Assembly (NCBI RefSeq): GCF_021533835.1
Contig: NZ_JAKFYQ010000002.1
Span: forward strand, 434,001 to 498,000
Direction of reading: 5' to 3'
Length of the DNA: 64,000 nucleotides
From: Synechococcus sp. Nb3U1
Lineage (GTDB): Bacteria > Cyanobacteriota > Cyanobacteriia > Thermostichales > Thermostichaceae
The translations under genes were made by a program, and so were the position numbers. The first letter of the stretch is position 1; every line of letters starts with the position of its first letter. Shown piece by piece: positions 234 through 48,759 of the stretch. Below the pieces are notes generated by a model that ran no database searches, was not told the origin of the DNA, and was given only the letters and a program-made list of their open reading frames with translations.

Positions 234-989
234 TTAGGGGGATTTCACCTCAAAGTCTAGATCCGGCATTGGCAGATTTGCCTGGGGGTTGCTCTGCCCC
301 GTCAGCATGGCCAAACGGCGCGATACTTCATCATCCATTGCCATGTTGTCTAGTTGAGCGGCGATCTGTTCGCTGCGATCCTCCGAGAGTTCGCTCATGG
401 CACGAGTTTTGAACTGGCGGGCCTGGACTGCGTTTTTGGCCGCTTCGAATTGGGACTTGGCGGAGTCGATACTGTAGGCATTGTTCACTCGGGTCATCTG
501 CTCGAGGGCTTGGTTCACCTCGTTGATGTCCTTCATGTTGCTCAGTTCATTTTTGTAGGTGGTGAGCCTTTCTTTTTCGCGGGCCAGTTTTTGCTTGGCG
601 GCGGTAACGTAGCGATCGGCAGTTTCGACGTTTTCTTTGAGGGGGCCGAGGATCGCCTCAATTTGAAGGGCTTGTGCCATAGCCATGCGGGCGGCCTCTT
701 GATCTCCCCGTTGAGCGGCTAGGCGGGCTTTGTTCTCGAGAGACTGGTATTCGCGCACCTTTTGCATGTATTTCTGCTCGGCCCGCTGGTAGGAGGCCAC
801 CTGGGTGGCCACAGCTTCGGTGAGGCGCTGGACAGATTCTTGCATGGTGCGTAGGGATTCTTCCGCCACCATCACCGCCCCGGTGCCGCCCTTATCCACA
901 GGGATCCCCCACAACCAGTTCCAGGTGCCGACGATAACGCTGCCCGCCCGTTGCCCAAAAATGCCGTAGATGACTTTGCGTGCGCCCAT
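234..989 (-). CDS. PspA/IM30-family membrane-associated coiled-coil protein
   Basis: A 251-residue protein made almost wholly of charged, Ala/Gln-rich helix (about residues 40-200), typical of PspA/IM30 proteins that polymerise on membranes. The stretch around residues 65-150 contains YQRAEQKYMQKV and RLAAQRGDQEAARMA, matching the family's hairpin. Unusual for PspA is the Gly/Trp-containing N-terminus (VGTWNWLWGIPV) in place of a plain amphipathic helix. The tail is rich in Pro, Asn and Gln. It is more divergent than Vipp1 itself, so it is probably a PspA paralogue rather than the thylakoid Vipp1. ATG start at 987-989. It is monocistronic as far as can be seen and convergent with hemF. Confidence 0.8.
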   Translation of the reverse strand: MGARKVIYGIFGQRAGSVIVGTWNWLWGIPVDKGGTGAVMVAEESLRTMQESVQRLTEAVATQVASYQRAEQKYMQKVREYQSLENKARLAAQRGDQEAARMAMAQALQIEAILGPLKENVETADRYVTAAKQKLAREKERLTTYKNELSNMKDINEVNQALEQMTRVNNAYSIDSAKSQFEAAKNAVQARQFKTRAMSELSEDRSEQIAAQLDNMAMDDEVSRRLAMLTGQSNPQANLPMPDLDFEVKSP

Positions 990-37968: not shown

Positions 37969-38000
37969 GGGATCCCTATCAGGCGGAAACTAGGGATCCC
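37969..38000. terminator. 10-bp inverted repeat built from two GGGATCCC sites
   Basis: GGGATCCCTA (37969-37978) pairs perfectly with TAGGGATCCC (37991-38000) around a 12-base loop. It sits between the convergent branching-enzyme and acetolactate synthase genes. There is no T tract on either side, so termination is uncertain. It shows the abundant palindrome used as a hairpin arm. Confidence 0.4.
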
Positions 38001-38023
38001 AATATCCGTTGGTGGCGAGTTGG

Positions 38024-38054
38024 ACAGCGCGGGACTGATAGCTCCCCGAACCCC
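38024..38054. repeat. Second copy of the 31-bp spacer repeat
   Basis: Matches 36124-36154 at 26 of 31 positions (shared words ATAGCTCCC and AACCCC). This copy lacks the downstream hairpin arm that the first copy has. It lies 41 bases from the ilvB stop. Origin is unknown; possibly an insertion-element end. Confidence 0.45.
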
Positions 38055-38094
38055 TTAAAAGTTAGCTGGGTTGATGGATCCCGGCCCATAGACT

Positions 38095-39891
38095 CTACAG
38101 TTTTGTGCCACATTCGGTGCAGAACTTGTGCAGGGTAGGATTTTTGGTGCCACAGTTGGGGCAGTAGATCAACTCCGCCGCCTGCTCCAATTGCCGTTTA
38201 TCCGGGATCCCAATCATCTGATGGTTGGCTTTGCCGGAGGGCACCATTGGATAGCAGTTTTCATCCCGCTTGACAACAAAATCCGCCAGCACCGGCCCCT
38301 CATGCTTGAGGATCTCCTGAACGGCATCCTCCAGTTGATCGGGGTGATCGACGCGGATCCCTTTTACCCCAAAAGCCTCCGCCAACTTGACAAAATCCGG
38401 CATACCGGGGGCCATATCGGAGTGGGAATAGCGCTCCCCATGAAAGGCTTGCTGCCACTGGCGCACCATCCCCTGCCAGCCGTTGTTGATGATGGCAACT
38501 TTGGTGGCAATCCCATACTGGGCAACCGTGCCTAGCTCCTGCAGATTCATCTGGAAGCTGGCATCGCCGCTAATGCAGATCACCTCATGCTCCGGCAGCG
38601 CCACTTTGGCCCCCATCGCTGCCGGGAACCCATAGCCCATGGTGCCTAGCCCGGAACTGGAAATCCACTGGCGCGGCCCGTTGCGCAGGAACTGGGCCGC
38701 CCACATTTGGTGCTGACCGACATCGGTGGTGTAGTAGGCGTGAGGTGCATGACGACGGAAGGCATCGATCACCTGTTGGGGGGCAATCACCCCTTCGTAA
38801 CTGGGCACTTGCAGGGGGTAATCCCGTTTCCATCGCTCCACCCGATCCAACCAAGCTTGGGTAAGGCCAGGGGTAGAGGGCATTTTGCTCAGTTGGGCCA
38901 GCATCTCCACCAAAACGGTGCGTACATCCCCCACAATCGGCACATCTGGTCCACGATTTTTGCCCACCTCGGCTGGGTCAATATCGATGTGGATCACCTT
39001 GGCGTGCTTGGCAAACTCGTCTAGCTTACCCGTCACCCGGTCATCGAAACGGGCCCCCACGGCAATCAGCAGGTCACACTCGGTCACGGCAAAGTTGGCA
39101 TAGGCGGTGCCGTGCATGCCCAACATCCCCACCGACAGAGGATCGTTCTCGTCAAAGGCCCCTTTGCCCATCAGGGTGGTGGTGACCGGGATCCGATAGG
39201 TCTGGGCCAACTCGGCAATTTCCGCGTGAGCACCGGAGATGATCGCCCCGCCCCCCACGTAGAGCAGGGGCTGTTTAGCCTGCAGAATCAGCTTGGCGGC
39301 AGCATGAATTTGCCGGGGGTTGCCCCGCACGGTGGGCTTGTAGCCGGGGATATTGATCTCGCTGACGGGTTGATAGTCAAACTCTTCAAGGCCCACATCC
39401 TTGGGAATATCCACCAACACTGGCCCCGGTCGCCCCGTACCGGCGATGTGAAAGGCTTCCGCCACAACCCGGGACATCTCGCGCGGATCCCGTACCACGT
39501 AGGAGTGCTTGACAATGGGCAGGGTAATGCCAAAAATATCGGTCTCTTGAAAGCCATCAGTGCCGATTAAATGGCGGGGCACCTGACCCGTGATCACCAC
39601 CATGCCCACCGAATCCATCATGGCGTTGGCAATACCCGTGACCAGGTTGGTAGCCCCCGGCCCAGAGGTTGCAAAACACACCCCAACTTTGCCGGTGGCA
39701 CGGGCATACCCATCGGCAGCGTGGACAGCCCCTTGTTCGTGGCGTACTAGATAGTGCTTGAGGAGCCCTTGCGACTCAGCTTTGTACAGCTCGTCGTAGA
39801 TGGGCAGGATCGCCCCACCGGGATAGCCAAAAATGTGCTGCACCCCATGCCGATGCAGGCTATCCACCAACGCATATCCACCAGTCGCCAC
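38095..39891 (-). CDS. ilvB: Acetolactate synthase large subunit with C-terminal zinc ribbon
   Basis: About 598 residues from the GTG at 39889-39891, which has a GGGAGAAG site just upstream; the frame is open to a TTG at 39981. It condenses pyruvate or 2-oxobutyrate in branched-chain amino acid synthesis using ThDP and FAD. Motifs: [15 protein letters not shown] with the catalytic Glu in [23 protein letters not shown], and the ThDP site SGDASFQMN with NNGWQGMV. The last 22 residues form [19 protein letters not shown], a four-Cys zinc ribbon (C577, C580, C591, C594 by this start) not found in E. coli enzymes. The regulatory small subunit is not in the window. Confidence 0.94.
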
Positions 39892-40172
39892 GATGTCTTC
39901 TCCCCGCTGAGATGACCGAATGCCAAAAACGCTCCCCCAGGGGAGCCAGCACGGACAAGGTACTGGCCGAAAATGGGCCAACTTTGTATTTGATTCTACA
40001 GTCTAGCAGCGGTTTGCTCCGAAGTTGAGACTTTCACGGTCGGGATCCCAGCTATCCATTCTCCGTAGTGTTGCACACAATTTTCTGGGGTTTAACCGGC
40101 TTAGATAAGGCTGCGGGCTTAGGCTCGTCCTCCACGGAGGCTTGCAAATTTTTTGCCAGAGAGGTCTTGCTT

Positions 40173-41234
40173 ATGGGTTATCTGCAGTTTGGGGTCTTTA
40201 TTCCCATCGCCAACAACGGCTGGATCATCTCTGTCAATTCACCCCAGTATATGCCCACCTTTGAGCTAAACAAGCAGATCACCCTGCTGGCGGAGCAGTA
40301 CGGTTTCGAGTTTGTCCTCTCCATGATCAAGTGGCGGGGCTTTAAGGGGGAAACCCAGTTTTGGGATCATGCCCTGGAGTCTTTTACCTTGATGGCGGGC
40401 TTGGCGGCGGTGACAGAAAAGATCCATCTCTACGCGTCGGTGGCCCTGCCCACTCTTCACCCTGCCGTGGCCGCTCGCATGTGCGTAACCTTGGACGATA
40501 TCAGTCATGGGCGGTTTGGCCTGAATATCGTGACTGGCTGGAACAAGTTGGAATATGCGCAAATGGGCCTGTGGCCAGGGGATGAATACTACAGCTATCG
40601 CTACGACTACGCCACCGAGTATGTGCGGGTGATGAAGCTGCTCTGGGAGCAGGGGCGCGTCACCTATCAGGGTAAGTATTTTCAGTTGGAAGATTGCCTT
40701 TGTCAGCCTCGGCCCTCCCGAGAGATTCCGATTGTTTGTGCGGGACACTCAGAGCGGGGCATGCGCTTTACGGCGGAAATGGGTAACCACAATTTCATCT
40801 TGGCTCCCTTTGAAGAAGCAGCTCGCATCAGTGATCGGTTGAAGGAGTTTGGCCAACAGGTGGGGCGCCAGGTGGGTACCTATGCTTTGTTTACGGTGGT
40901 GATGGGAGAAACCGATGCAGAAGCCCAAGCCACTGCCGAGCACTACATGGAAGGGGGAGACATCGAAGCCTTGCTGGGTTGGAAAGGGGCGGCCAATACC
41001 GATCCGGTGGGGGTGAATGTGAAACGCTATCAGGCGGAAGCGTTTATGGGGATCCCTACTATCATTGGCTCCTATGAAACCGTGGCCCAAGAGCTGGATC
41101 GCATTGCCAGCCAAACCAGCATCGACGGGATCCTCTTCACCTTCCCGGATTTCATCGCCGATGTGCAGCGGTTTGGGGAACGGGTGATACCTTTGGTCAA
41201 TTGCCGCCAAGTATTGCAACCGGCTTATATCTAA
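40173..41234 (+). CDS. RutA-like flavin monooxygenase (luciferase family)
   Basis: About 353 residues from the ATG at 40173 (MGYLQFGVFIPIANNGWIIS); an upstream in-frame start at 40068 would add an unrelated leader. It closely follows pyrimidine oxygenase RutA: QYMPTFELNKQITLLAEQYGFEF, LSMIKWRGFKG, FWDHALESFTLMAGLAAVT, GRFGLNIVTGWNK and YASVAL. RutA opens the uracil ring with FMN and O2. RutB-G genes are absent here, so either uracil or another ring compound is the substrate, or the product goes to unlinked enzymes. Confidence 0.85.
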   Translation: MGYLQFGVFIPIANNGWIISVNSPQYMPTFELNKQITLLAEQYGFEFVLSMIKWRGFKGETQFWDHALESFTLMAGLAAVTEKIHLYASVALPTLHPAVAARMCVTLDDISHGRFGLNIVTGWNKLEYAQMGLWPGDEYYSYRYDYATEYVRVMKLLWEQGRVTYQGKYFQLEDCLCQPRPSREIPIVCAGHSERGMRFTAEMGNHNFILAPFEEAARISDRLKEFGQQVGRQVGTYALFTVVMGETDAEAQATAEHYMEGGDIEALLGWKGAANTDPVGVNVKRYQAEAFMGIPTIIGSYETVAQELDRIASQTSIDGILFTFPDFIADVQRFGERVIPLVNCRQVLQPAYI

Positions 41235-41254
41235 AGATTAGTTGGATCAGAAGA

Positions 41255-42352
41255 TTAGATCGTAATCGGGGCATCCACATAAATGGTGGGATCCTGAATT
41301 TCAAAGACAATCCCGTATTCCTTCAGCTTTTGGGTGATGGTTTCGTTGGCTAAATCCAGCAGTTGTCGGCGTAAATCCATCGAAACTTCTCCGGATCCCA
41401 GAATGAAAAAGGTCAGTTGAGCCTGACTACGAGCGGGCTGGGATCCCTGGGCTGCCAGCTCCCGGAAGGTAAGGTCGGTATTGCGAGAATCAATGCCAAA
41501 AATATCGCGGGTGCTTTCTAAAATCACCTGCCGAATCAGGGCTTTTTCTTCCTCGGGCAAGAGGCGCTGAAAGGTCAGATAAATCAGCGACATCACCTTC
41601 TTTGCCCCGGTGAAGTTCTCGATACTCACCTGTGTGAGGGCGCTATTGGGCACAATCACCAATGTGCCTTTTCCCGAGGTGCGAATGCGGGTCGAGCGCA
41701 AGCCAATCGACTCCACACGACCAAAGGTGCCATCCGGCAGACCAATGTAGTCATCCACCACAAAAGGCCGATCCACATAGATAACAATGCCCCCCAGCAG
41801 TTGCTCCAGGGTTTTTTGGGCCGCAAAAGCCACCGCCAACCCCCCAATGCCCAAGCTGGCAAACAGGCCTACCACATTGATCTGATGGCTTTGGGCAAAG
41901 AGCAATAGCGCCAAAAAGCCGATCGCCAGATTGGCACTGATCCGCCCGACGATCAGCAATTCACTATTGACCTTGCGCCCCCCCTTGAGGGCCGTATCCC
42001 GCAGATAAACATCGGCAAAGCCTTTCACCAACCGGGTCAACAGCCAAGCCAGAGCTATTGTCAGGGCCAGGCTCACCCCCAGCTCCGTCAGGTGCAACCA
42101 CAAGCCCCGCGGCAACACCAGCAAGGCCACTTCTGCCAGCAGCAGCGTCACCACCAACCCGATCAATCCCGCGTAGGGATCCACCGTGCGCTCGTACACT
42201 TCCGCCACATCCGGGCTGGCCCATCGCTTCACCGTCGGCTTCAGCCATTTCGGGATCCAACGGCCCAATCCGAAGGCCAGCATCCCCACCAGGGTGATCA
42301 CCCCCACCTGGGCCCACCCTCGGCTCATCTCCAGCCCTTGCAACCACTCCAT
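41255..42352 (-). CDS. MscS-family mechanosensitive ion channel
   Basis: About 365 residues from the ATG at 42352. Several N-terminal membrane helices (about residues 15-32, 60-80, 90-110, 130-160) are followed by the pore helix and beta domain. GLFASLGIGGLAVAFAAQKTLEQLLGGIVIYVDRPFVVDDYIGLPDG is the conserved MscS pore and beta-domain start, and VESIGLRSTRIRTSGKGTLVIVPNSAL is the core. It releases solutes at hypo-osmotic shock. It is followed upstream by the nuclease-PspA gene on the same strand (68 bases), possibly one transcript for membrane stress. Confidence 0.92.
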   Translation of the reverse strand: MEWLQGLEMSRGWAQVGVITLVGMLAFGLGRWIPKWLKPTVKRWASPDVAEVYERTVDPYAGLIGLVVTLLLAEVALLVLPRGLWLHLTELGVSLALTIALAWLLTRLVKGFADVYLRDTALKGGRKVNSELLIVGRISANLAIGFLALLLFAQSHQINVVGLFASLGIGGLAVAFAAQKTLEQLLGGIVIYVDRPFVVDDYIGLPDGTFGRVESIGLRSTRIRTSGKGTLVIVPNSALTQVSIENFTGAKKVMSLIYLTFQRLLPEEEKALIRQVILESTRDIFGIDSRNTDLTFRELAAQGSQPARSQAQLTFFILGSGEVSMDLRRQLLDLANETITQKLKEYGIVFEIQDPTIYVDAPITI

Positions 42353-42420
42353 AGGCAAACTCCGTCCAGGTGGCTTACCGCCTCAACCTGCCAGTTCCTA
42401 GCGGATTCAACGGATTCAAT

Positions 42421-43404
42421 TCAATTGTTCATCTCCCGTTCCAACTTGGCCATCGAGATTTGGCTTTCAACGCGGGAAATGCCCTCCCGAAGGGTTACCA
42501 CTTGCGCTTCCACTTCATCCAGAGATTTGCGTACCGCTTCAGCCGCACTCATGTGTTGATTCCGCTGTACCAAAGCATCTCGGGCCAGGCTGTCGTTGTG
42601 GTGTTGGGTGGCCTGCTCCGCCCGGACATACCAATCCTCTGCCTTTTGCAAAATCTCGTCGTACTGCCGTTCCAGTTGTTTGCGGCTGGCCAGGGTCGTG
42701 GTCAAGCTGCGCTGTAACTGTTTGAGATCCCGCTCCATTTGCCGGATGCTCACTTTCTTCTGGCTGGGCTTTTTCCAGAGCAACTTGCTCAGACCCACCA
42801 TCACCACCACTGTGGCGATGCCCACACCCGCAGCCGCCGTCGGGTTTTCGCGGATGAAGGAGCCATTCAAAACATTCGCCCCGGCAAAGGCAGAGGTTTG
42901 CATCCCCGCCTCCCGAAACTCCCAGGGCATTACCGGGTTGCGTTGCTGCCAAAATCCCAGCCGAGCTGTCTGTGCCCCCTCTTGGGCTTCCAAATAGCGC
43001 TGACGATTGGCCCCGTGCAAAAAGCGCTCATAAACCACCGCATGTCCCTGGCGCAACATCTCCAAATTCACCAGGCCGTCGGAGTTGTAGACCTGGGCGA
43101 TGTGCAGTCCCTCGGGGGTGACATAGAGGGTATCCACCTGCACCAGGGATCCCGTCGGGATAATGTTTTGTAAAGCCTCCTGAGACAGCCGCCCCCACCG
43201 CCCCTGGGTCAGCTCCGGCGCATCCACGTAGGAGAGTCGAAACCGGGTAGGCCTGCCGTTCAGATCCGCCCAAAAGGTATCTCCATCCACCACTGAGCGT
43301 ACTCGCGCTGTACCCGAAGATTGCGCCTGTGCCGCCACCGGAAGGGCAAACCCAGCGCCTGCAAGGGCAGCCACAGTCACCAGGGAAGAAGTTCTTGAGG
43401 TCAT
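42421..43404 (-). CDS. SNase-like domain fused to a membrane helix and a PspA/Vipp1-like coiled coil
   Basis: 327 residues from the ATG at 43404. Residues 1-26 are a signal peptide (ALPVAAQAQ). Residues 30-150 are a staphylococcal-nuclease-like domain with VVDGDTFW (D40, D42) and FRLSYVDAPE (D61, E64), but the catalytic Arg (Arg87 of S. aureus nuclease) is Leu100 in PEGLHIAQV, so activity is doubtful. A membrane helix follows (193-208). Residues 215-325 resemble PspA/Vipp1: AEDWYVRAEQATQHHNDSLARDALVQ then LREGISRVESQISMAK. I know of no such fusion. It is upstream of MscS, which also suggests a membrane-stress role. Confidence 0.7.
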   Translation of the reverse strand: MTSRTSSLVTVAALAGAGFALPVAAQAQSSGTARVRSVVDGDTFWADLNGRPTRFRLSYVDAPELTQGRWGRLSQEALQNIIPTGSLVQVDTLYVTPEGLHIAQVYNSDGLVNLEMLRQGHAVVYERFLHGANRQRYLEAQEGAQTARLGFWQQRNPVMPWEFREAGMQTSAFAGANVLNGSFIRENPTAAAGVGIATVVVMVGLSKLLWKKPSQKKVSIRQMERDLKQLQRSLTTTLASRKQLERQYDEILQKAEDWYVRAEQATQHHNDSLARDALVQRNQHMSAAEAVRKSLDEVEAQVVTLREGISRVESQISMAKLEREMNN

Positions 43405-43729
43405 GGGGGTCACTCCTATCGTGCAGATCAAGAACAAAAATTAAGAAATAAAAAGTCCGGGAACTTCGGGAACCCAAGGCAAACCCAGAGCGTCACAGAA
43501 GCTTGCAGTAGAGCCTAACCACAAGCCCCTCTCACAAAGGTATTGGGACTAACATTTTTCTGTGTCAAAAAAGTAAACTTTCTTGACAAAAAGGGTACGG
43601 CTCTTAACGAGTCGGCTCATGGGCTTAGCATGATTTGGGTTAGAGCTTAGCTCACATCGTTTGCCAACGTCACAACCCTAAGGCGCAATTTTCACCAATG
43701 CACTGTAGATGCATTTATTAAGCACAAAC
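43405..43729. other. AT-rich spacer
   Basis: 325 bases upstream of the nuclease-PspA gene and downstream of the TPR-like gene. It contains TTGACA words on both strands around 43560-43590 that could be -35 elements, but no matching -10 was convincing. No gene or RNA was recognised. Confidence 0.4.
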
Positions 43730-44548
43730 TTATAGGCGCAAAAGGTAAGGCTCCTCGTCCGGGAACTCTGGCAGGGGTGGGGCCAAGATCTCAATCTCGC
43801 CAGTAGGCAAGATCTGCAGGACGGTACCCAACTGGGCCAGTTGTTCTAGGACAAAAATGCGAGTATCCCGGTCGGTGGTGGAGTTGAACACGCTCATCCA
43901 AGCATCAAACCGGGCTCGACGACTGAGGGGGCTACGGGCGATGTTGTCCCCCAATTGGCGAAAATCATCCCCTGGCAAGCCCACCTGTTCCCGCCAAGCG
44001 GCAGCTTGGTAGTAGTCGTCTCGGCCTGCTTCCGCATCGCCCAAGAAGAGAAAGTTCAGCAAGGCTCGATCCACGTAAAGTCGCCATGCGTCAGGGTTGG
44101 TCTCGGGCGTAAATTGCTGAATGCCGCGATCTAGAATTTCAATCGCTTGCTGCGGTTGTCCGGCCCGGTAGGCCAAGACCAGGCTGGACAGCCGATAGCC
44201 CAAGAAAAAATTGGGATCCAGCCGGGTCATATGGTCGAAGTAGTCGTAGGCCAAGCCATAGCCGGTCAGGGTGCGCCCGGGGCCATCCCCGTAGTACTGG
44301 ATCAGCTCCAGCCATAGCCAAGAGGCTCCCAAGTTGCGGTAGCCCAGCCATCCCAAAGCATTGGCCAGGGCGATGTTGCGATCTTTGCGGGCTTCGGCAT
44401 TTTCCAATTCCCCCAGGTTGATCCGCTCCAACATGGGCAACTGCATCTGTACCAGGATGCCACCACAGATCAGCAGCCCCAAAACGGCGGGCAAGGTGCT
44501 CTTCAGGGAGAAGCGGAGGTGGCGACGGGACAGTGAAGCGGTGGTCAT
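43730..44548 (-). CDS. Membrane-anchored TPR-like protein, unknown function
   Basis: A 272-residue protein with one membrane helix near residues 17-35 (LPAVLGLLICGGILVQ) and a soluble, helical remainder. Two helical pairs (YDYFDHMTRLDPNFFLGYRLSSLVLAYRAGQPQQAIEILDRGI and the NPDAWRLYVDRALLNFLFLGD region) look like degenerate tetratricopeptide units. It likely mediates protein contacts at the membrane. I do not recognise a named family. ATG start at 44546-44548; divergent from a methyltransferase gene. Confidence 0.65.
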   Translation of the reverse strand: MTTASLSRRHLRFSLKSTLPAVLGLLICGGILVQMQLPMLERINLGELENAEARKDRNIALANALGWLGYRNLGASWLWLELIQYYGDGPGRTLTGYGLAYDYFDHMTRLDPNFFLGYRLSSLVLAYRAGQPQQAIEILDRGIQQFTPETNPDAWRLYVDRALLNFLFLGDAEAGRDDYYQAAAWREQVGLPGDDFRQLGDNIARSPLSRRARFDAWMSVFNSTTDRDTRIFVLEQLAQLGTVLQILPTGEIEILAPPLPEFPDEEPYLLRL

Positions 44549-44669
44549 AGGTGGCTATCAGGGGATCCGAACAATTTCTTGAGGCAGTTTCACCCTGTAG
44601 GACAATCAGGGATCCTGAATAAGACCGCGGCGGCTACACTCATCTTAAATTCTGCTCTACCCCCCCTTC

Positions 44670-45941
44670 ATGGCCAGTAGCACCCTTTCTGCCTCGGAAC
44701 GGGCTCTCACCCTTTACGAAGCACTGCCCTACCCCAATGTTCCCCTCTCGCAAACGGCCCGCAATGCCCTGCCAGAGATGTTCAAAATGAGCTACACCAC
44801 GGCTCAGTACGTGCGTACCCATGCAGTGATCGAGCCAGAAGGCAAGGTTTTGTTGAATGCGGGCTGTGGCTCCGGTTGGGAGACTTTGATGATGGCGGAG
44901 GCCAATCCTGGGGCCAAAATTGTTGCTTTTGATCTGTCACCAGCCTCCGTCAAGCTCACCGAAGAACGGCTGCGCTATCACGGCTTCACAGATATCGAGT
45001 TTTATGTGCTCAATCTGCTGGAACTGGATCGCCTCGGGATCCAGTTCGATTTCATTAGTTTGAATGATGTGTTGTATTTGCTCGAGGATCCCACCGATGG
45101 TCTGCGGGCGATGAAAAGTGTCTTAAAGCCGGAGGGCATCATCCGCGCCAATCTCCACCATCGCTACCAACGGCAGGTGTACTTCCGCATGCAAGAAGCC
45201 TTTCAAATGGTAGGACAATTTGATGTTGCTCCAGCCACAGGGGCGAAACATGTACGGGAGTTCATGGGATCCCTGCACGAGGAGATTGCCAAAGGAGTGC
45301 TCTGGAATCCCGCCAACTACACCGAGGATCCCGCCATAATGAACAACTACCTGCTATCCAACGACAAAGGCTTTACGATCCCTGACTTGTTTCACATGTT
45401 GCGGCAGGCCGAGCTAGGCTTTTTGGGCTTAGTGGATATGCCCGATTGGTCGGTGGAGTCTTTGTTTAAAGAAGTGCCGGAGTTTGTGCGGCGCAAACTG
45501 GAAGACCTAAGCCCCATGGAGCGCCTACACCTGTACGAGCTGATCTGCCCTGCCCATCGCCTCATCGACTTTTGGGTGGATCACGCCGGATCCTCTTTGG
45601 TGTTTCCCTGGAGCGAGGCCGATTGGTTGGAGGGATCCGTACAATTCAACCCCATTTTGCTAGACAGCTCTCGCTTTCATCAGGAATACAACAAAGCCTT
45701 GAAAGACAACCAGCCCTATGAAATGCAATGGACAGGTGCTACCCACGGCAAGTTGAGCATTCCGCCTGACAAACTGAAGTGGCTAGCTCCATTGCTGCAA
45801 GGGCTAACCCCAGTTCGGGAATTGATTCAAGGGGGCATTGGGTTGGGATCCCTGGATGAGGAAAAAGCAACCGATCAGGTGCTGGCCTACCTGACGGCTT
45901 TGGAAGACTTTCTTTTTGTGATGTTGCAACCTAGCCTGTAA
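44670..45941 (+). CDS. Class I SAM-dependent methyltransferase, 423 residues
   Basis: The N-terminal part carries an intact methyltransferase fold: motif I VLLNAGCGSGWETLMMA (about 60-76), the acidic residue in IVAFDLSPASV, and motif IV FDFISLNDVLYLLEDP. The C-terminal 200 residues are an extension with LHEEIAKGVLWNPANY, SNDKGFTIPDLFHML and repeated hydrophobic blocks that I cannot assign. It resembles large cyanobacterial methyltransferases of unknown substrate. The gene stands alone. Confidence 0.8.
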   Translation: MASSTLSASERALTLYEALPYPNVPLSQTARNALPEMFKMSYTTAQYVRTHAVIEPEGKVLLNAGCGSGWETLMMAEANPGAKIVAFDLSPASVKLTEERLRYHGFTDIEFYVLNLLELDRLGIQFDFISLNDVLYLLEDPTDGLRAMKSVLKPEGIIRANLHHRYQRQVYFRMQEAFQMVGQFDVAPATGAKHVREFMGSLHEEIAKGVLWNPANYTEDPAIMNNYLLSNDKGFTIPDLFHMLRQAELGFLGLVDMPDWSVESLFKEVPEFVRRKLEDLSPMERLHLYELICPAHRLIDFWVDHAGSSLVFPWSEADWLEGSVQFNPILLDSSRFHQEYNKALKDNQPYEMQWTGATHGKLSIPPDKLKWLAPLLQGLTPVRELIQGGIGLGSLDEEKATDQVLAYLTALEDFLFVMLQPSL

Positions 45942-46107
45942 GGGAACCAAACTGCTCACAGTCTCGGGTTGGTTTGGCTCTAATGGCGCTTAGCAGGGAT
46001 CCTATGGGTCAGTGTGGAGATCCGCCTGGGATCCGACCCCAATGTTGGGCGATGATGGAGAAGGAGGGGGATAATTTTCCCTACAGGCGATATCGGGGGC
46101 TAGGGCT

Positions 46108-46494
46108 ATGGGTCGTTCCTACCAACAATCGGAAGTGGAAGAGATTTTGACCCGGGCGATGGCTCTGCATGCTCAACGCTCAGAAACCTTTTCCCACCAG
46201 CAAATCTTGGAAATGGCAACAGAATTGGGGATCCCTGCGGCAGATCTGGAAGCCGCCATGCAAGATTGGGAAAAAGACCGCCCGGCTAACACCTCTTCAG
46301 CTCCTGGAAAAACAGAATCCTCCGACAAAGCCAAGCCTGTGGGGGATCCCTTCTGGCGCAAAGCTGCTCCTCCCGCCGTGATTGTGGGTGGACTGCTAGT
46401 GATGGGCCCAATCAGCCTGTTAGCCACAATTCCCATTGCCCATCATCTGAACAAACGCAACAAAGCCCAGCAACATCCGCAACCTTCCAGTTAA
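46108..46494 (+). CDS. Small membrane protein with a 2TM-domain-like N-terminus
   Basis: A 128-residue protein. Residues 1-50 (YQQSEVEEILTRAMAL, then HQQILEMATELGIPAADLEAAMQDWE) match the short helical module often placed before 2TM domains in cyanobacteria. A Ser/Pro/Lys linker follows, then one hydrophobic hairpin (PAVIVGGLLVMGPISLLATIPIAHHL, 88-113) and a basic tail. The membrane part is too short for two clear helices, so it may be a re-entrant segment. Function unknown. Convergent with vanY. Confidence 0.75.
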   Translation: MGRSYQQSEVEEILTRAMALHAQRSETFSHQQILEMATELGIPAADLEAAMQDWEKDRPANTSSAPGKTESSDKAKPVGDPFWRKAAPPAVIVGGLLVMGPISLLATIPIAHHLNKRNKAQQHPQPSS

Positions 46495-46523
46495 TCGACC
46501 TGTTGAGCTGCAGATGGGCCGGA

Positions 46524-47276
46524 TCATCGAGTGTAGAAGGTTTCAAGACTGTTACGATCCCCCACAAAACGCCAGTGCCAAGGCTCGTAGCTCACCCCCT
46601 GCGGGTTTCCACGCGGGAAAGACAGCTCAAAGCCAAAACGGGCAGCATTGCTCTCTAACCATCGGAAGGCGGGAGTGGTTTCAAATCCTTCTTCCGTATC
46701 GAATTGTGGAAACCCTGCATCACCAATATCGATGGCATAGCCAGTGTGGTGCTCACTGTAGCCGGGGGGAGCGCTGACAGCAGCCCGTTCTTCCGGTCGC
46801 AAGGCGCGGGACTGGGCCAGTTGAAAAAACAAGAATTCTTGATCCGCAATCGAGCGAAACCCCGAAATCGGGACAAGACGGATCCCGGCGGCTTGAGCGG
46901 CTTCATTCATACGCCGATAACTTTCAGCCGCCGCCTGGCGCAAGCGGATCTCGCGGCCATGGTAACTCCCCACCGCCTGCAGACTGTCCAGTGGGGCTTC
47001 CGAAAAGGCAAAATGCCCCAATACAGACACTCGACCATCCTGAAGGGTTGGCGGTGGCAAAGAAAAAGACGACTGGCTGGATTCTTCCACCGCTACAGGA
47101 GCTGCTACCTCGGGGGAATCTGATAAACCCAACAGCCCCCAATCGACCCAGAACAGGAGCCCAAGCAAGATTAAACCTAGTCCTAGGCTCAGCCATAACC
47201 GCGATGAAATCACCAGACCTTGTTTTCTCCCCACCCGAGTGGGTTGGCGACGCGCGACCGGAATGTCGTCGTTCAT
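46524..47276 (-). CDS. D-alanyl-D-alanine carboxypeptidase (VanY-like, M15B)
   Basis: About 250 residues from the ATG at 47276. A single membrane helix near residues 25-45 anchors the protein (LWLSLGLGLILLGLLFWV). The periplasmic catalytic domain carries SGFRSIADQEFLF, then YSEHHTGYAIDIGD (His and Asp zinc ligands) and EPWHWRFVG with the last His ligand. It trims the terminal D-Ala of peptidoglycan peptides. Length is normal. It follows prxQ by 44 bases on the map but is read away from it on the same strand. Confidence 0.92.
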   Translation of the reverse strand: MNDDIPVARRQPTRVGRKQGLVISSRLWLSLGLGLILLGLLFWVDWGLLGLSDSPEVAAPVAVEESSQSSFSLPPPTLQDGRVSVLGHFAFSEAPLDSLQAVGSYHGREIRLRQAAAESYRRMNEAAQAAGIRLVPISGFRSIADQEFLFFQLAQSRALRPEERAAVSAPPGYSEHHTGYAIDIGDAGFPQFDTEEGFETTPAFRWLESNAARFGFELSFPRGNPQGVSYEPWHWRFVGDRNSLETFYTR

Positions 47277-47326
47277 GTGCAAAGGCAGAGAATCCAGCTA
47301 GGAGAACTCAAGGGATGCAGCCCTAT

Positions 47327-47764
47327 TTACAATCCCAAATCCGCCAAAATATCGCGGGCATGGGTTTCGGTATTGATGTTTTGGTAAACCTTAGCAATTT
47401 TGCCTTCGCCATCGATCACATAGGTAACCCGCTTGGAATAGCCGCCCCCATCCACATCGTAGGCACGGGTGATTACCCCACTGCTATCCACCAATAGCGG
47501 AAAAGGCAGGTTGTACTTCTCGGTGAACTTTTGGTGCGAGGCTTGATCATCCATGCTCACTCCCAAAACCACTACATCTTTGCCCTGATAATCGGCATAG
47601 GCATCGCGGAATCCACAGGCTTCTTTGGTACAACCGGGGGTATCGTCTTTGGGGTAGAAATAAAGGATGACGGTTTTACCCGCCAAACTGGCCAGAGAAA
47701 CCTGATTGCCTTGGGTATCGGTGGTGTTGAACCCAGGTGCAGCAGTGCCAACGGTGAGAGCCAT
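47327..47764 (-). CDS. Peroxiredoxin of the BCP/PrxQ type
   Basis: A 145-residue thiol peroxidase. The peroxidatic Cys45 is in FYPKDDTPGCTKEAC and the resolving Cys50 is five residues later, which is the atypical 2-Cys PrxQ pattern. It reduces hydrogen peroxide and organic peroxides using thioredoxin. Length and fold markers (LLVDSSGVITRAYDVDGGGYSKRVTYVID) are normal. No signal peptide, so it is cytoplasmic. Confidence 0.94.
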   Translation of the reverse strand: MALTVGTAAPGFNTTDTQGNQVSLASLAGKTVILYFYPKDDTPGCTKEACGFRDAYADYQGKDVVVLGVSMDDQASHQKFTEKYNLPFPLLVDSSGVITRAYDVDGGGYSKRVTYVIDGEGKIAKVYQNINTETHARDILADLGL

Positions 47765-47907
47765 AGAGGAAGTTACCTTGAAAGGCGCAATGGATAGACA
47801 GTACCCCTAGGGGCCTGCCCTCAGCATTCTCTTCAGCCATACTTGCCTCTGTCAAGCCATTGCCAAGCTAGCCAGGGATCCCACTCTTGTCAAAACCATG
47901 TATCGGT

Positions 47908-48759
47908 TCATTCCACCCGCGGCAGCAGCAGTGTGAACGTCGAGCCCAAGCCGACCTCCGACACAAAAGTAATCTGCCCCCCGTGCAGGCGTGCACAGGT
48001 TTGTGCCACCGTCAGCCCCAATCCTGTACCCACCCTCTCCCCGACATTGCTACCTCGATAAAACGTATCGAACAGATGGGCTTGAGCTGGGATAGGGATC
48101 CCGATGCCCCAATCCCGAACTTCGATCTGAAAGACAGAGCCACAGCAGACGCGGATGCGAACCAGCTGATGATGGGGGGAGTATTTGAGGGCGTTGTGGG
48201 CAAAGGTAATCCAGGTTCCAGAAAGAAGAGGTCGATTGATCTGGATTGACACACACGGTTTGGGTGCTGGAGTCGTAGAAGCCCAAAAAATGCTCCGATG
48301 CCGGCACTGTGTGATCGTAAAGATCAAAATCAATGTCTGAGTTGAGATCGTTAAAGGCCTCCTCTACCACATCAGAAATCCGAAATATCCCCAATAAATA
48401 ATCCGGTGCTTTATCTCGTTGTATTAAAGGTAAAAATACCAAAAAACCAAATTGCTCTTCCCTTCCGGTTCTTGCACCAGTCGTATTCGCGCAGTGGCAA
48501 CCAAAGACTGGGCTTTTCGAGCAGTTTCAATCACCAGTTTGCGCGTCTGATCAGAAGCCAAATCAAATCCAACAGCCACTTCATTGCTGACCAACGGCTG
48601 TACATAAGTAACAGGTACATAATAGGCTCTCGAGGCGGCTGGAACCAATTTCCCCTGTTCGGTGTGATCGGTAATGCGGAACTCAGGGATCCCGAGAGCC
48701 TTCATCCTCAGCTCAAAGGCTTCCCGTTCTGTGTGCAGGACAAAGGGGGCCCATTCCAA
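47908..48759 (-). pseudogene. Broken CHASE-domain histidine kinase
   Basis: Three frames carry the pieces. The CHASE sensor end is in 48424-48759 (EREAFELRMKALGIPEFRITD, YYVPVTYVQPLVSNEVAVGFDLASD, RLVQEPEG). The next piece (LIQRDKAPDYLLGIFRISDVVEEAF) is shifted by one frame at about 48430. After CVNP near 48250 the reading jumps to a HATPase fragment: NALKYSPHHQLVRI, GIGIP, GTGLGLTVAQTCARLHGG. The second membrane helix, any PAS/GAF part and HisKA are missing. The N-terminal membrane helix is also lost. It is a decayed sensor gene. Confidence 0.8.

Follow-up and report, generated by a model that had tools for sequence, protein, structure and literature searches.

How does a protein that places a staphylococcal nuclease (SNase)-like domain, a membrane helix, and a PspA/Vipp1-like coil in a single reading frame function, and is its outer part a nuclease or a sensor? 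The gene is located on the reverse strand (42421..43404; ATG at 43404, stop at 42421) of the 64,000-nucleotide stretch of Synechococcus sp. Nb3U1 DNA analyzed here (the window), as are all other window features mentioned below, and it encodes 327 amino acids. The protein and its orthologues are referred to as type A fusions, a group of paralogues as type B.

Architecture of the fusion protein and its PspA/Vipp1 hairpin

The domain order predicted from the sequence (signal peptide, SNase-like domain, transmembrane (TM) helix, PspA/Vipp1-like region) was confirmed by the open reading frame, Pfam, and hydropathy. Two hydrophobic stretches were detected. The first (residues 7–25) belongs to a signal peptide (residues 1–27, 43324..43404; hydropathy and alignment) with an AQA-Q site, of which A27 and Q28 are invariant across 10 aligned fusion members. 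The second (residues 191–209, 42778..42834) is the TM helix, which is directly followed by the basic stretch KKPSQKK; AlphaFold2 places a helix at residues 195–208, with low confidence there. The SNase profile of Pfam matched residues 54–154 (E 1.4e-11) and PspA_IM30 residues 220–324 (E 1.4e-15), both exceeding the curated cut-off. The SNase-like OB-fold domain (residues 30–165, 42910..43317) was also recovered in the predicted strands and helices, by Foldseek, and by VIA-align. Given the signal peptide, the TM helix, and the basic stretch, we infer that this domain lies outside the cytoplasm and the C-terminus inside. An assembly or frameshift artefact was ruled out: several independent genomes encode the unbroken fusion, and its domain order recurs in a paralogue encoded at a different locus.

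The C-terminal PspA/Vipp1 α1–α3 hairpin comprises residues 219–327 (109 residues, 42424..42750) and was delimited by Pfam, the alignment to the genome's own Vipp1, and the structural model. The isolated coil reached 61.4 bits against PspA_IM30 (cut-off 33.9), whereas the reversed coil of identical composition remained under the cut-off with 19.2 bits. The alignment to the free-standing Vipp1 of the same genome (L077, contig C1 at 323 kb) extends over 107 residues with 36% identity, 69% positives, and no gaps, and scores 18.8 s.d. above heptad-preserving shuffles. A generic coiled coil is therefore ruled out by the reversed and the heptad-shuffled controls. A PDB search with the family profile returned Vipp1 and PspA structures first. 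The structure prediction proposed earlier for this region yielded a two-helix hairpin: AlphaFold2, run with a shallow alignment of five rows, modeled two long helices (residues 220–267 and 271–326) mostly with pLDDT >90. The top row of VIA-align was E. coli PspA 1–144 (4whe; Z 11.4, rmsd 2.4, 117 residues), with other helical hairpins scoring near it and Z values <13 representing weak evidence for helical folds. By its sequence, the hairpin is a true PspA/Vipp1 homologue.

The original prediction of a PspA/Vipp1-like C-terminus thus stands with respect to homology, but its extent has to be limited to the α1–α3 hairpin, not a whole PspA. The homology spans Vipp1 residues 32–138, beginning right behind the TM helix and its basic stretch; the protein ends two residues past the equivalent of Vipp1 138, and the match to the PspA_IM30 profile stops at position 136 of 220. 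Vipp1/IM30 and PspA (bacterial ESCRT-III superfamily, PF04012) share the α1–α3 hairpin and the predicted fold with the fusion, which lacks α0, the start of α1, and the polymer-forming α4–α5. The amphipathic α0 at the N-terminus is replaced by the extracytoplasmic domain and the TM helix. Without α0 and α4–α5, the fusion alone should not form PspA/Vipp1 assemblies. Identity to the own Vipp1 peaks in the tip half of the hairpin (0.41–0.43 at Vipp1 52–97, 0.17–0.28 in the rest), and the tip motif W..RA..A......LAR.AL is also present in divergent fusion paralogues. Type A hairpins carry a net charge of −1 to +1 and type B-like ones −5 to +2, compared to +3 in Vipp1.

Active site and selective constraint of the SNase-like domain

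In the alignment, Leu100 of the fusion (codon at 43105..43107) stands at the position of Arg87 of staphylococcal nuclease (TPEGLH vs. DKYGRG), as had been predicted for the catalytic arginine. Leucine occupies this position in every type A copy with a readable SNase part (the window copy and five others, including a contig-end piece in genome G003), whereas Arg87 is kept in 20 out of 20 free-standing cyanobacterial SNases compared. An apparent leucine at this position in L065 was a BLAST misalignment, since KYGR stands alongside. Arg87 mutants of staphylococcal nuclease have an activity lower by several orders of magnitude. Like the staphylococcal nuclease family (PF00565) and the cyanobacterial "thermonuclease family proteins," type A has the SNase profile, the OB fold, and D21, R35, D40, and E43. 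It differs from them in the replaced Arg87, the loss of K84 and Y85, and the attached TM helix and hairpin. The complete catalytic set (Arg35, Glu43, and Arg87 with the Ca2+ ligands Asp21 and Asp40) is thus broken at Leu100, and nuclease activity has presumably been lost. In the type B paralogue, the Arg87 position is kept and R35, D40, and E43 are lost, with an uncertain alignment for the very divergent copy of genome G007; a type B-like protein is still predicted to contain an SNase-like fold and the hairpin. The active-site losses in both types affect different residues and are independent.

The dN/dS values among type A sequences were 0.037 for the SNase-like domain, the most constrained part of the protein, and 0.094 for the hairpin, which rules out a decaying pseudogene. 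Strong constraint despite the lost Arg87 indicates that selection preserves the outer domain for a role other than that of a complete catalytic site, and such purifying selection is as expected of a binding or sensing domain. The SNase fold has apparently been reused without catalysis.

Further SNase-like proteins were noticed in these genomes. A third SNase-fold protein of the source genome (L002, 1492–2079, reverse strand) appears by eye to be devoid of key active-site residues (DGET, GIEGIS, TGLVEA), so that none of the three detected there seems intact. SNase-like proteins with degraded active-site motifs and without the hairpin are encoded in G006 (L105, 1316–1975, forward strand) and G007 (L104, 800–1675, forward strand).

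Distribution and genomic context

The fusion is present in all eight genomes of the Thermostichaceae, a family of hot-spring cyanobacteria. A full-length profile search gave no full-length fusion in the other 380 of 388 cyanobacterial genomes, and when about 85,000 species (one genome each) were scanned, full-length fusions appeared only in members of this group. Type A occurs in six out of six genomes of the genus; the orthologues are 84–92% identical in four other genomes, and the copy of a fifth (G003) is split across two contig ends. Outside the genus, G007 contains a C-terminal type A piece at a contig end. Type B or B-like copies, the latter in two genomes, were detected in the source genome (G000, on a different contig from type A), G005, G006 (two copies), and G007; both types coexist in two genus genomes and in G007. 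In a phylogenetic tree with several long branches, one branch (support 99/98) separates the fusion hairpins from free Vipp1/PspA. One origin with later duplication explains these sequence data most simply.

An mscS-like gene (41255..42358; Pfam, synteny) starts 62 bp downstream of the fusion gene on the same strand. The predicted position of the fusion upstream of MscS was therefore correct for the window, but not as a functional link: the genes adjoin in three of the six genus genomes (the window genome, G005, and G002), and other genes follow the fusion in G004, G003, and G001. An MscS partnership or conserved operon was rejected on these grounds, and we leave mscS out of the proposed system. 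The upstream neighbor in all six genus genomes is a gene for a weakly TPR-like protein of 272 amino acids (43730..44548; Pfam). No stress gene was among the conserved neighbors. Blocks of sequence upstream of the fusion gene and a TAGGAGTGA site there are conserved, so that the gene probably has its own promoter. A consensus search yielded no sigma-70 promoters, and no structured RNAs were found in window positions 38000–48000.

Possible roles of the fusion protein

Our preferred reading, to which we assign a probability of roughly 40%, is that of a transmembrane pseudo-nuclease which, as a receptor, adaptor, or anchor, offers Vipp1/PspA a hairpin of the ESCRT-III type. Its basis in sequence or model comprises the domain order, the hairpin homology, the missing helices, the lost Arg87, the constraint, and the single origin; binding of the hairpin to Vipp1/PspA and a sensory role of the outer domain would have to be added. 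The signal peptide would direct the SNase-like domain into either the periplasm or the thylakoid lumen, and the single TM helix would anchor the protein and display the α1–α3 hairpin in the cytoplasm. With its catalysis lost, the outer domain may instead serve to bind a partner, conceivably Ca2+, a nucleotide, a polyanion, or a protein. In Vipp1 rings, the hairpins stack sideways, and a subunit lays its α5 across the hairpin tip of a neighbor, which it binds at Interface 1 (L86/L193 cross-link; PMC8281802). The fusion hairpin may have kept the surfaces for side-by-side packing with Vipp1/PspA and for accepting the α5 of a neighbor; lacking α5 and α0 itself, it could accept but not donate this helix. 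It could for this reason respond to a certain state outside by recruiting Vipp1/PspA assemblies to particular places on the membrane or by seeding or capping them there. The narrower proposal that the pseudo-nuclease senses an outside signal while the hairpin-only cytosolic part seeds or caps Vipp1 polymers, which would make the protein a transmembrane receptor for bacterial ESCRT-III, is speculative and in itself improbable.

Several observations are in favor of the adaptor role: the homology and predicted fold of the hairpin, the constraint on the SNase-like domain, the single clade of fusion hairpins, and the free Vipp1/PspA in the genome. Besides Vipp1 itself, a PspA-like protein of 251 amino acids with an unusual N-terminus (window 234–989; PspA_IM30 48.6 bits over profile positions 27–216) is a possible partner. 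The conserved upstream region with its putative own promoter is suggestive as well. The identity peak in the tip half, where α5 of Vipp1 binds its neighbor (PMC8281802), fits this role; since the tip is a generally conserved part of the PspA family, its conservation does not single out partner binding. By analogy, the isolated α1–3 hairpin of cyanobacterial IM30 is found at the cytoplasmic membrane in vivo and forms no puncta (PMC12636044). Against the adaptor role stand the near-neutral charge of the hairpin compared to the positive IM30 hairpin, the missing conserved stress-gene neighbor, and the fact that nearly all other cyanobacteria manage without the fusion.

Alternatively, the hairpin might have no partners but other copies of itself and type B hairpins, and this pairing would cluster the outer SNase-like domain, with Vipp1 uninvolved. 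The coiled-coil character of the hairpin, the joint occurrence of both paralogues, and the stronger constraint on the outer domain than on the hairpin agree with such clustering, but the gap-free, residue-specific likeness to Vipp1, including the tip motif and extending to divergent paralogues, exceeds what a plain oligomerization coil needs, and we regard it as rather unlikely. A direct effect on lipids, in which the cytosolic hairpin binds anionic lipid, either of its own or of an opposed membrane, and so bridges or shapes membranes, is a little less probable still. The α1–3 hairpin of IM30 alone does bind PG membranes (KD about 3 µM) besides reaching the cytoplasmic membrane (PMC12636044), but this binding depends on positive charge, and the net charge of the fusion hairpin is about zero. 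Very unlikely is a membrane-tethered active nuclease that tolerates Leu100, cuts incoming DNA or RNA, and uses the PspA coil as an anchor. The four active-site residues retained in type A and the strongly constrained domain would be compatible with it; the consistent Arg87 replacement, the additional loss of K84 and Y85, the intact Arg87 of free-standing SNases, and a type B of identical architecture without R35, D40, and E43 speak against it.

Little is understood of how Vipp1/PspA assemblies are positioned and initiated at membranes; as a natural hairpin-only relative with a TM anchor and an outer domain, the fusion would offer a direct handle on this question. It could show that a membrane receptor nucleates or caps bacterial ESCRT-III polymers, and through such a receptor an outside signal may reach the membrane-repair machinery. 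The fusion also represents a defined natural truncation against which the polymer model can be set. A survey of the PSP system from 2024 describes PspA-PspAA and PspA-NlpC/P60 fusions, which are rare (<2% of homologues; PMC11237479). They likewise contain the PspA domain within a multi-domain protein, whereas the protein described here retains the hairpin alone, behind a TM helix. The main text of the survey names no SNase fusion, and the word "nuclease" is absent there (PMC11237479). Among the main texts covered by our literature search, which included few subscription papers, none reported an SNase-PspA fusion.

Vipp1 paralogues with a hydrophobic, Gly/Ala-rich insert of about 110 residues between α0 and α1 were encountered in other cyanobacteria (385–398 amino acids; L071, 2394–3548, L072, 2638–3795, L073, 2059–3228, L074, 2197–3363, and L076, 2038–3231, all forward strand; L075, 2080–3255, reverse strand). 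They look like membrane-inserted Vipp1 and, like the fusion, combine a Vipp1 hairpin with a hydrophobic segment. In contrast to the fusion, they retain α0, and their match covers almost the whole PspA profile. In L078 (722–2350, reverse strand), Vipp1 is part of a 543-amino acid open frame with about 290 further, unrelated-looking residues and a hydrophobic segment, which reflects either a fusion or a missing stop.
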